From: Tateyamaria omphalii
GTDB lineage: Bacteria; Pseudomonadota; Alphaproteobacteria; Rhodobacterales; Rhodobacteraceae
Assembly (NCBI RefSeq): GCF_019802125.1
Contig: NZ_JAHVHT010000004.1
Location: 1 to 64,000, forward strand
Direction of reading: 5' to 3'
DNA length: 64,000 nucleotides
Every line of letters starts with the position of its first letter. The stretch's first letter is position 1. A program made the translations under genes and the position numbers. The notes beneath the pieces are model-generated. The model had not been told where the DNA came from. It did not search any database and was given only the letters and a program-made list of their open reading frames with translations. Of this stretch, positions 24,371 through 61,703 are shown one piece after another.

Positions 24371-24520
24371 GTGCAATACTCTGCCTCATCAGATATTTGC
24401 CGCAGCGCAGTATAATGCCACGCAAGAAACGAACAAATAGCCGCACCAAAATGAATATTTGTTGCGCTGCACCTGCGAACTAGATAAGCCGTGACGGAGC
24501 TAGAAATGAGGAGCCAAGCC

Positions 24521-26209
24521 ATGGCACATGACGGACAGGATATGGGGGCGGTCACGCCCATTTTGCTGGATGACCTGCTTGGTCTGACACGTGCGGCACT
24601 CAAACCGGTCGAAGAGATCACGGAACTCGCCCGCACCCGTCTGCGCGATCAACTCAGCGTCGATGGCCGCGTATCGGGCGCTTTGGTGGAAGAGCATCAG
24701 ACAGCCGCGCACGGCCTGGCGTGGCTTGCCACCTACACCGAATCGCTGCGCCAGATGCAGAAATGGGCCGAAGCGCTCGATGCACAATCCAAGTTCGGCG
24801 AAGTCGAAGCACTGATTCACCAGATCGCTTTCGGCGAATACCTCTGGCAGATCTATGGCGGCATTCAGATGAACCAGGGTGAGGTGCTGCGCCTGCAGGA
24901 CCTCGGCCTGTCGCAGGACGACATGCGCGGCATGATGGAACCGGCGGTGATGACGCTCACCCAAGGCGGCAACACCCAAGCCGCCCGCATCCGCCTCGTC
25001 GAACTGATGCAGGAACGCAGCGCAGAGATCACGGTGGGCGCCTCCGGCCTCGACGAAGAGCTGGAAATGATCCGCGAACAGTTCCGCCGCTACGCCATCG
25101 AAAAAGTCGAACCCTTCGCCCACGATTGGCACCTCAAGGATGAACTCATCCCGATGGAGGTGATCGAGGAGCTCGCCGAGATGGGCGTGTTCGGCCTGAC
25201 CATCCCCGAGGAATATGGCGGCTTTGGTCTCTCCAAGGCATCTATGTGCGTCGTCTCCGAAGAGCTGTCGCGCGGCTACATCGGCGTCGGCTCCCTCGGC
25301 ACCCGGTCCGAAATTGCAGCCGAGCTGATCATCGCGGGCGGCACCGAAGAGCAAAAGCAAAAGTGGCTGCCGCAATTGGCCTCCGCCGAAACGCTGCCCA
25401 CAGCCGTGTTCACCGAACCCAACACCGGCTCTGACCTCGGCTCGCTCCGCACCCGCGCAGTCAAGGATGACAACGGCGACTACAAGATCACCGGCAACAA
25501 GACCTGGATCACCCACGCCACGCGCACGCAAGTGATGACACTGCTGGCCCGCACCGACCCGAACACGACGGACTACAAGGGCCTGTCGATGTTCCTGGCC
25601 GAAAAGACGCCGGGCACCGACGAAAACCCCTTCCCCACCGACGGCATGACCGGCGGCGAGATCGAAGTCCTCGGCTATCGCGGCATGAAGGAATACGAGC
25701 TGGGCTTCGACAACTTCCACGTCAAAGGTGAGAACCTGCTCGGCGGCGAAGAAGGCAAAGGCTTCAAGCAATTGATGGAGACCTTTGAATCCGCCCGCAT
25801 CCAGACTGCTGCCCGTGCTATTGGCGTTGCTCAATCGGCCCTCGACATCTCCATGCAGTACGCCCTGGACCGCAAGCAATTCGGCAAGGCGCTGATCAAC
25901 TTCCCCCGCGTGGCCAACAAACTGGCGATGATGGCGGTCGAGATCATGGTGGCCCGACAGCTCACCTACTTCTCGGCCTTCGAGAAGGACGAAGGGCGCC
26001 GCTGCGACGTGGAGGCCGGCATGGCCAAGCTGCTCGGCGCCCGTGTGGCCTGGGCGGCTGCAGACAATGGTTTGCAAATCCATGGCGGCAACGGTTTCGC
26101 GCTGGAGTACAAAATCTCCCGCGTCCTCTGTGACGCCCGTATCCTCAACATCTTCGAAGGTGCCGCCGAGATCCAAGCGCAAGTCATCGCCCGCCGCATC
26201 CTCGGCTGA
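24521..26209 (+). CDS. mcd: Acyl-CoA dehydrogenase, methylsuccinyl-CoA dehydrogenase type
   Basis: A 562-residue flavoenzyme, far longer than ordinary acyl-CoA dehydrogenases (~380). The extra ~150 N-terminal residues include GRVSGALVEEHQTAAHGLAW and QIAFGEYLWQIYGGIQMNQGE, typical of methylsuccinyl-CoA dehydrogenase. That enzyme oxidises methylsuccinyl-CoA to mesaconyl-CoA in the ethylmalonyl-CoA pathway of acetate assimilation. The dehydrogenase core shows FTEPNTGSDLGSLRTRA, GNKTWITHA, ALDRKQFGK and the C-terminal IHGGNGFALEYKISRVLCDARI. Electrons should go to the EtfAB encoded at 10-12 kb. ATG 24521 is chosen because GAGGAG lies 9 bases upstream; a GTG frame begins at 24491. The other pathway genes are not adjacent. 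Confidence 0.85.
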   Translation: MAHDGQDMGAVTPILLDDLLGLTRAALKPVEEITELARTRLRDQLSVDGRVSGALVEEHQTAAHGLAWLATYTESLRQMQKWAEALDAQSKFGEVEALIHQIAFGEYLWQIYGGIQMNQGEVLRLQDLGLSQDDMRGMMEPAVMTLTQGGNTQAARIRLVELMQERSAEITVGASGLDEELEMIREQFRRYAIEKVEPFAHDWHLKDELIPMEVIEELAEMGVFGLTIPEEYGGFGLSKASMCVVSEELSRGYIGVGSLGTRSEIAAELIIAGGTEEQKQKWLPQLASAETLPTAVFTEPNTGSDLGSLRTRAVKDDNGDYKITGNKTWITHATRTQVMTLLARTDPNTTDYKGLSMFLAEKTPGTDENPFPTDGMTGGEIEVLGYRGMKEYELGFDNFHVKGENLLGGEEGKGFKQLMETFESARIQTAARAIGVAQSALDISMQYALDRKQFGKALINFPRVANKLAMMAVEIMVARQLTYFSAFEKDEGRRCDVEAGMAKLLGARVAWAAADNGLQIHGGNGFALEYKISRVLCDARILNIFEGAAEIQAQVIARRILG

Positions 26210-26290: not shown

Positions 26291-26367
26291 CTTTGCATTT
26301 GCCCCATGAAAACCCCATTAACCCGCTCTTAACCTTCAGCACCGCACGCACCGTTAACCCGCGCTTT

Positions 26368-26418
26368 GGTGCACAACCGGTGTACGGGGGGTGCACAGGG
26401 GGTGTACTGGTGGTGCAT
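26368..26418 (+). repeat. Five-unit GGTGYAC array with exact 11-bp period (copy 1)
   Basis: The heptamers GGTGCAC, GGTGTAC, GGTGCAC, GGTGTAC and GGTGCAT start at 26368, 26379, 26390, 26401 and 26412, each exactly 11 bp after the last. The four-base spacers vary (AACC, GGGG, AGGG, TGGT). A GTTAACC word lies 9 bases to the left. A second array with the same unit and period is at 61578. The function is unknown; the spacing equals about one helical turn, so a protein could bind all units on one face. Confidence 0.85.
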
Positions 26419-26549
26419 CGCAGTTTTCCCAACAAACACAGGCGTTAACCCGCATATCCGCCCGTCCCACGCAAACCGCGCGTTAACTGTTGCGCGTACG
26501 GTGCCCGTTCCCGCATTGACCTGGACGCAGGCTCCGCCATTCTAACCCA

Positions 26550-27140
26550 ATGCTCACCTTCGCCGCCGCCGTCTTCTTACTCATCATCACCCCCGGCCCC
26601 GGCGTGCTGTCCGCCGCAGGTGTTGGCGCCGCCTTCGGCATGCAGTCGGGTCTGCGCTACGTGCTGGGCCTCTTCATCGGCAACAACCTCGTCATCCTCG
26701 CGGTGATCAGCGGCCTTGCCGCCCTGATCCTCGCCAGCCCGGCCTTGCGTACCTTCCTCTTCATTCTCTCGACAGCCTACCTGCTCTACATCGCCGCGCG
26801 CATCGCGTTTGCCGGGTCAAAACTGGCCTTCGCGCCCGCCGACACCGAACCCGGCGTGATCAACGGTATTCTGCTTCAGCCCATCAATCCAAAGGCTTAC
26901 GCCGTCAACACCGCCCTCTTTTCCGGCTTTGCGCTCATGCCCGACGCGCTCGTGGCCGAAGCGGCGTGGAAGCTGCTGATCGTCAACGCGATCTGGGTTC
27001 CGATCCATGTGCTGTGGGTCTGGTTCGGGGTGCAGCTCAAGGCGCTGGACCTTGCGCCACACCGCCAGCGGCGCATTAATTATGCCATGGCCGCATCCAT
27101 GCTTGTGGTGGTCGCACTCGCCGTCGCATCCGGGATCTAG
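26550..27140 (+). CDS. LysE/RhtB-family amino-acid exporter
   Basis: A 196-residue inner-membrane protein with about six hydrophobic segments. The family signature is ITPGPGVLSAAGVGAAFGMQSG near the N-terminus (core TPGPGVLSAAG), with the conserved NPKAYAV in the middle (QPINPKAYAVNTALF). LysE/RhtB proteins export amino acids such as homoserine, threonine or lysine by proton antiport. The substrate is unknown. The ATG is the first possible start and removes nothing from the family N-terminus, but no ribosome site is clear. Confidence 0.88.
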   Translation: MLTFAAAVFLLIITPGPGVLSAAGVGAAFGMQSGLRYVLGLFIGNNLVILAVISGLAALILASPALRTFLFILSTAYLLYIAARIAFAGSKLAFAPADTEPGVINGILLQPINPKAYAVNTALFSGFALMPDALVAEAAWKLLIVNAIWVPIHVLWVWFGVQLKALDLAPHRQRRINYAMAASMLVVVALAVASGI

Positions 27141-61490: not shown

Positions 61491-61577
61491 GTCAGCAGCA
61501 AAGCCCACGCTTGGTTAACAACCAATGAACAGACCCCACCGCGCGTTGCGTTAACCTCCGCCTCGGCGTCCGTTGGG

Positions 61578-61617
61578 GGTGTACAGGGGGTGCACGCAGG
61601 GTGCACAGGGGGTGACA
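61578..61617 (+). repeat. Four-unit GGTG array with exact 11-bp period (copy 2)
   Basis: GGTGTAC, GGTGCAC, GGTGCAC and GGTGACA start at 61578, 61589, 61600 and 61611, each exactly 11 bp apart. Spacers are AGGG, GCAG and AGGG. A GTTAACC word lies 21 bases to the left (61550-61556). Unit and period are identical to copy 1 at 26368. It lies in the 250-base region between the lipoprotein start and the FadR-type gene. Confidence 0.85.
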
Positions 61618-61703
61618 CCCTGTTTTCAGCGTCAATCTCCGTAAAAACAAGGTAAACGCGCGCGCCGACTCACCCCACCCGCTCTCCGATTGCACCACCG
61701 CCC

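Follow-up and report, generated by a model that had tools for sequence, protein, structure and literature searches.

An array of phased heptamers between two genes

The window analysed here is the whole 64-kb stretch of Tateyamaria omphalii DNA introduced above, which belongs to a genome of 4.49 Mb in 12 contigs (G000). A 340-bp intergenic gap in this window, between the end of an acyl-CoA dehydrogenase gene at 26209 and the start of a LysE-type gene at 26550, carries five heptamers in direct repeat (GGTGCAC, GGTGTAC, GGTGCAC, GGTGTAC and GGTGCAT), which start at 26368, 26379, 26390, 26401 and 26412. We call this array 1; a second array lies further along the window. The features are the following.

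24491..26209, plus strand: acyl-CoA dehydrogenase gene, upstream neighbour of array 1 (named by eye)
26318..26505 (ends approximate), plus strand: type B composite repeat around array 1, recognised from copies elsewhere in the genus
26368..26418, plus strand: array 1, five GGTGYAC/T heptamers at 11-bp steps, from direct reading, pair statistics and orthologous sites
26516..26521, plus strand: TTGACC, a possible -35 box of the LysE-type gene, 3' of the type B element (by eye)
26550..27140, plus strand: LysE-type gene, downstream neighbour of array 1 (named by eye)
61537..61662 (ends approximate), plus strand: type A composite repeat around array 2, CACCGCGCGTTGCGTTAACC ... AACAAGGTAAACGCG
61578..61617, plus strand: array 2, within the type A repeat, with GGTGTAC at 61578, GGTGCAC at 61589 and 61600, and GGTGACA at 61611

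An earlier note on this DNA had described array 1 as five phased heptamers in noncoding DNA surrounded by GTTAAC words. The heptamers are borne out by direct reading and by the genome-wide pair counts given below, the gap between the two genes confirms the noncoding location, and the GTTAAC words are present at 26353, 26444 and 26482. On the minus strand, the unit of array 1 reads GTRCACC. Matches to two heptamers at an 11-bp step, with up to two mismatches, occur 7 times in the window, where 1.44 would be expected (the largest count in a shuffle was 6). Single heptamers are not enriched (14 versus 16), and the signal therefore lies in the phasing.

Many Tateyamaria arrays are embedded in composite repeats that also contain GTTAACC words, either of type A (about 120 bp), as for array 2, or of type B (about 170 bp), as for array 1. 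The type B layout around array 1 comprises TTAA-N7-TTAA (26318-26332), which we take to be CtrA-type spacing, the three GTTAAC words, the array and a GTTGCGCGTACGGTGC end. Several species have words resembling TTAA-N7-TTAA at the site orthologous to array 1 and also ahead of lepA. The closest three type A copies in the genome (C1:761819, C6:157407 and C6:179019) are 88-95% alike over 133-209 bp, and type B copies are 70-84% alike.

Dispersal and conservation of the arrays

Exact pairs of GGTGYAC at an 11-bp step occur 45 times in the T. omphalii genome, compared with one for a reversed-pattern control, and fall at 25 loci; one further locus with a variant step brings the total to 26 arrays. 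When heptamer pairs separated by any gap from 0 to 26 were counted, the gap was exactly 4 in 45 of 50, and 11 matches across all gaps came from the reversed pattern. These counts speak against an occurrence at chance frequency, which the earlier note had named as grounds for discarding its proposal. The same note had given absence from relatives as a second such ground. Of 20 genomes of the genus, 10 have exact triple arrays, 41 other sampled genomes have none, and arrays are also found at orthologous sites. Contigs C5 and C7-C12, which amount to about 0.6 Mb by subtraction and may be plasmids, hold no exact-pair arrays.

A scan of named genomes identified at least 118 stretches with an array, and 112 of the 118 listed belong by title to Rhodobacteraceae, with Leisingera, Nioella, Jannaschia, Roseovarius, Paracoccus and other genera represented among the matches listed. 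Array numbers range from about 10 in a Paracoccus chromosome to 41 in a Roseovarius chromosome and at least 45 in the genome G110. Each of six Leisingera plasmids (about 109 kb) has a single array by a search with one version of the motif. General even spacing of the arrays along the chromosome was considered and dropped, as it was seen in only one of six genomes (P 0.0046 in G110; P 0.08-0.94 in the five others). Our searches of an open-access library turned up no description of these arrays, and passages of PMC7901474 do not describe arrays of this kind.

The earlier note also regarded the 11-bp spacing as invariant and the four-base spacers as changing. The spacing is exact in array 1 of T. 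omphalii, and at the orthologous site in four other species the phase is mostly kept while the spacers drift, but a one-base insertion interrupts the arrays of two of these genomes (G007 and G015). The spacers do change between species, although not freely, with AGGG and GSAT being preferred. Six genomes show the same ahead of lepA, where the GTGYAC phase mostly persists despite drifting spacers.

Of 113 arrays that could be classified by gene context, 110 are intergenic. The set of 113 includes three chance hits outside the family (L084, L115 and L148), treats orthologues within the genus separately, uses gene starts from a simple purpose-made caller, and follows the removal of loci shorter than 2500 bases, duplicates, arrays 400 bases or less from a locus end and then five edge cases. 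The 110 are distributed among tandem gene pairs in both orientations (39 and 31), convergent pairs (22) and divergent pairs (18). Among 80 loci with arrays of other motifs (see below), hand-picked among the matches listed, 21 are convergent and 7 divergent. Four of 40 arrays in G110 lie inside predicted genes, and some arrays are located between closely spaced co-directional genes, such as before rpsP.

A BrnA-like RHH protein as the candidate binder

Clustering of the genes that neighbour the arrays revealed a BrnA-like ribbon-helix-helix (RHH) protein whose gene is preceded by an array, 79-186 bp before its start, at seven loci in Tateyamaria, Leisingera, Roseovarius and Nioella and in several gene contexts. 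The T. omphalii gene is outside the window (contig C1:915286-915657) and has its own array directly upstream. The protein matches the Pfam family BrnA_antitoxin (PF14384; 3.3e-12), as do all 11 aligned members. An AlphaFold model built from five sequences is poor (pLDDT 44), and the assignment of the RHH fold therefore rests on the Pfam match. Searches of NCBIfam with two of the proteins and of PADLOC with 11 returned no match, and no RHH match was found among PDB sequences at E values up to 1.

Within the genus, every one of the 10 genomes with exact triples has the RHH gene or a remnant of it, as do 2 of the 10 that lack such triples (Fisher test, 3.6e-4; like the co-occurrence and junction counts and Fisher tests that follow, this treats related genomes as independent, without correction for phylogeny). 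The two exceptions are G006, in which a variant-form array accompanies the RHH gene, and G009, in which the gene is broken. All eight copies judged intact from a reading of the translated loci have two to four phased units upstream, in two unrelated gene contexts. Among the copies judged in the same way to be broken or shortened, upstream units number none in G001 and G009, two in G004 and four in G002, and G001, G002 and G004 retain arrays despite the damage. Phased units are also found upstream of lepA in G013, G014 and G016, where the RHH hit is absent, and we read these as relics.

A search for the BrnT toxin (PF04365) gave no match in the 12 Tateyamaria genomes that have an RHH hit; within the genus the toxin occurs only in G008, G017 and G019, all of which are without such a hit. 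The neighbours of the RHH gene, named by eye, include prfC and a MocR-like regulator among others, and a motor gene was not noticed among them. The view that a solitary BrnA-like RHH protein would bind the arrays and autoregulate its own gene is well supported. The same holds for the suggestion in the earlier note of a multi-site binding array for an unknown protein, and the protein can be given a likely family.

Repeat motifs that differ among lineages

RHH homologues were detected by profile search in 60 of 159 genomes, each representing one genus. For the 29 best-scoring hits outside T. omphalii, among 59 genomes with a hit, we searched the 320 bp upstream for a triple repeat of period 11 that agreed in at least five of seven columns. 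This was found for 20 of the 29 and, among 171 control stretches taken from these loci, for 2, so that helically phased direct repeats, a feature of iterons bound by RHH proteins, commonly precede the gene. Other periods from 8 to 16 were found upstream of at most 2 of the 29, and the control stretches score at periods 9, 12 and 15 in 9, 8 and 7 of 171 cases, as coding DNA would. Nine of the 29 homologues have no period-11 array by this score, two of which (L238 and L240) show a 12-bp period.

The units upstream of these genes differ among lineages and include GTGCAC, ATGCAC, GTATGG, GTATGAC, TTCATGC, TCTTCCTTCC and others. GTGYAC triples occur in 10 of the 159 genomes, three of which (G093, G182 and G190) have no RHH hit, and the resulting co-occurrence (7 of 10 versus 53 of 149; Fisher test, 0.035) is weak alone, many genera using other motifs. 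The motif tends to go with the DNA-facing strand of the protein when the sequences are compared by eye. Strands of the form RVT.R or RIT.R are mostly accompanied by GTGCAC, a small residue 5 by ATGC, and KVTI by GTATGG, with L241 (RVTLRV with GTATGAC) as an exception.

Motifs resembling those beside the RHH gene are also dispersed elsewhere in several genomes. With overlapping triples counted apart, the RHH gene's own array included and the palindromic RTGCAY counted once, RTGCAY triples gave 34, 23, 15, 12, 4 and 1 matches and four zeros in ten genomes with an RHH gene, and GTATGR triples gave 125, 27 and 16 matches and two zeros in five. Reversed controls gave zero except for one match in G148. 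An RHH-linked version of the motif is thus dispersed in 8 of these 15 genomes, and a pattern that fitted better added a ninth; the genomes with zeros include some whose own upstream unit misfits the pattern searched. For G066, one of the genomes with zeros, a pattern predicted beforehand from its own upstream region yielded 11 matches; these fall at 10 places, of which one is the array at the RHH gene. In other genomes, this pattern found two matches in G020 (one beside its RHH gene), none in G000, G114, G075, G120 or G116, and four in G110 that look like the reverse complement of the GTATGG arrays of that genome.

Some positions are shared between lineages that use different motifs. We compared the gene junctions of 66 of the 80 other-motif arrays, from four genomes, after dropping gaps outside 60-900 bp and proteins shorter than 50 amino acids. 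Seven of the 66 match the junction of a GGTGYAC array in both neighbours and in arrangement, and none matches any of 406 non-array junctions. By comparison, 105 non-array junctions gave one match to an array junction and 11 to non-array junctions (Fisher test, 1.6e-4). Two of the seven represent one site in two genomes, ahead of chorismate mutase and rpsP, and other motif-switched sites are dnaJ-radC and leuC-leuD (gene names by eye). If GTRCACC corresponds to GTATGG and GTATGAC, five of the six motif-switched sites with an oriented motif keep the expected strand by eye, and the nitrate-transporter site (L294 versus L001 and L081) does not.

Orientation relative to replication

As a proxy for the direction of replication, we used the GC skew of the flanks with the array itself excluded. 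In T. omphalii, the strand that carries GGTGYAC has negative skew for 20 of 25 arrays when 3-kb loci are used, and for 23 of 24 in windows up to 20 kb, the latter set comprising 24 of the 26 arrays (left out are C4:78052, which lies outside the window, and a variant that has no exact pair). The direction of coding around these 24 arrays is balanced, with 13 below half. Across named loci of the family, skew is negative for 87 of 111 arrays versus 3 of 6 outside the family, with L074 (500 bases, not labelled) and L149 (fewer than 3000 bases) left out. Nioella (19 of 29) and a single MAG (1 of 4) show the weakest bias. In Roseovarius (G202), it is 20 of the 28 arrays counted out of 41 (p 0.036). 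Along a complete Paracoccus chromosome, the array strands run -----++++-, and 7 of 10 are negative by skew.

Arrays of the other motifs have the opposite sign, with positive skew on the array strand for 39 of 40 GTATGG arrays in G110 and 20 of 20 GTATGAC arrays in G114. On its other strand GGTGYAC reads GTRCACC, which aligns with GTATGG and GTATGAC. Base composition alone fails to explain the bias because the G-rich GGTGYAC sits on the C-rich strand. The earlier note had proposed mapping the arrays by strand and gene position, and this mapping places nearly all of them between genes. An orientation bias relative to replication, as in KOPS-like elements, is seen by the GC-skew proxy and is weaker in some genera.

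Proposed function and alternatives

Phasing, dispersal, conserved sites, association with the RHH gene, lineage-matched motifs and orientation relative to GC skew were computed directly. We infer that each array is a multi-dimer site for a chromosomal BrnA-family RHH protein without a BrnT partner, a reading that we hold with a probability of roughly 0.7. One RHH dimer would probably occupy each 11-bp unit, such that the dimers would align on one face of the helix and might build up a short polar filament. Such a filament would probably autoregulate the RHH gene when it forms at the promoter of that gene, and elsewhere it would mark sites that are mostly intergenic and preferentially oriented relative to replication. 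Polar nucleoprotein marks of this kind could organise the chromosome or be read by something that moves along it, such as the replication fork, SMC or FtsK. Because the arrays are dispersed and oriented with GC skew, a chromosome-organising or fork-following role, the former already listed in the earlier note, is our best guess for their function, though at odds slightly below even.

The main rival holds that the RHH protein is a global transcription regulator and that the arrays are operators at target promoters. The RHH gene carries its own upstream array, 88 of the 110 intergenic arrays adjoin at least one gene start, those at lepA and at the LysE-type gene precede a likely promoter by eye, and array sites are conserved across genera. 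However, convergent arrangements are at least as common as divergent ones in both sets counted above (22 versus 18 and 21 versus 7; pooled p 0.038 against equality), some arrays sit between closely spaced co-directional genes, and orientation tracks GC skew rather than genes. We consider such a regulon unlikely, while giving it more weight than any other alternative; a narrower version with promoter-only operators was set aside, as all four gene arrangements occur. Distinctly less probable is that the arrays are mobile or self-copying repeats, spread via single-stranded DNA at the fork in a manner similar to REP/RAYT or IS200/IS605-like elements, and that the RHH protein tames or exploits them. 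Insertion into single-stranded DNA is expected to give polarity, and a bias in orientation would hence arise without function; the near-identity of the closest type A copies and the looser likeness of type B copies would also fit, and copying would make it easier to see how many sites come to switch motif at once. Against this, the same gene pairs are occupied by different motifs, species largely agree in phase and sites, and a phased array of its own accompanies the RHH gene in most of the cases examined.

Two explanations at the level of nucleic acid structure fare worse. A Rho-independent terminator or other RNA element is suggested by the many GGTGYAC arrays that finish with CACCCCC and a T-run, the CACCCCCTTTT end of which can pair with an upstream GGGGGTG. 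We regard this as very improbable, given that tandem gene pairs show arrays in both orientations, that some arrays lie between closely spaced co-directional genes, that array 1 and the other-motif arrays inspected have no such pairing end, and that an Rfam search of the 64-kb window gave no match. The G-quadruplex or structured transcript raised in the earlier note draws on the G-runs in many Tateyamaria spacers, but spacers without G-runs occur, and arrays of GTATGAC, ATGCAC and TCTTCCTTCCG lack G-runs and yet keep the 11-bp phase. With the negative Rfam result for the window, this proposal is not supported, and a G-quadruplex-forming repeat is scarcely credible.

The arrays can be compared with several known systems. 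In ParR/parC of the plasmid R1 type, an RHH protein binds tandem direct repeats of about 11 bp beside its own gene and forms a polar filament. The likeness lies in the pairing of an RHH protein with phased direct repeats beside its gene, the binding here being proposed; parC serves as the centromere of a plasmid, forms one cluster and comes with a ParM motor gene, whereas here many short arrays are spread along the chromosome. BrnT-BrnA type II toxin-antitoxin systems (PF04365/PF14384) resemble the present case through the Pfam match of the protein, and their antitoxin typically controls its own expression. They differ in that BrnT is absent here from 12 of 12 Tateyamaria genomes with an RHH hit and that the arrays are dispersed.

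KOPS are single 8-bp sites read by FtsK. According to PMC2680272, the KOPS motif is oriented relative to replication on both arms of the chromosome. The present arrays are likewise oriented, but they are helically phased, vary in motif among lineages and occupy fewer sites. SlmA/SBS, Noc/NBS and MatP/matS each combine a dedicated DNA-binding protein with dispersed chromosomal sites that are single palindromes. Our arrays share with them the dispersed chromosomal sites and a candidate dedicated protein, and differ as oriented tandem arrays. REP/BIME and other intergenic repeats are similarly multi-copy and intergenic, with some near-identical copies, but REP/BIME are palindromic, in contrast to helically phased units with a matched protein gene. 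The features that we find unusual are the dispersal, the orientation and the turnover of motifs at shared positions.

Taken further, the proposal is that Rhodobacteraceae carry a previously undescribed chromosome-marking system, in which a toxin-free RHH protein of antitoxin type would form polar filaments on dozens of replication-oriented 11-bp arrays, and in which the marked positions would stay while specificity and arrays change together between genera. The arrays would then be chromosomal addresses for the replication or segregation machinery. We advance this tentatively, as having a little less than an even chance of being correct. A previously unexplained repeat is tied to a named protein family, and the DNA beside an RHH gene predicts the binding motif of a relative, as held in the one genome for which the prediction was made beforehand. 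The family also offers a natural series of changes in protein-DNA specificity, with many sites switching together and some doing so at conserved positions, and such joint switching is difficult to account for with present ideas of how binding sites evolve. Should the orientation linked to replication be functional, it would point to a new layer of chromosome organisation in an abundant group of marine bacteria.

Some minor observations accompany these results. Exact triple arrays are held by 28 viral-contig stretches (L410-L437), which could be proviral host flanks or chance matches. Loci with the prfC context (L216-L222) have a small gene, SnoaL-like by eye, after the RHH gene or remnant. In G114 (L310-L329), many GTATGAC arrays start 12-31 bp past a stop codon, and the unit recurs in inverted form after them.
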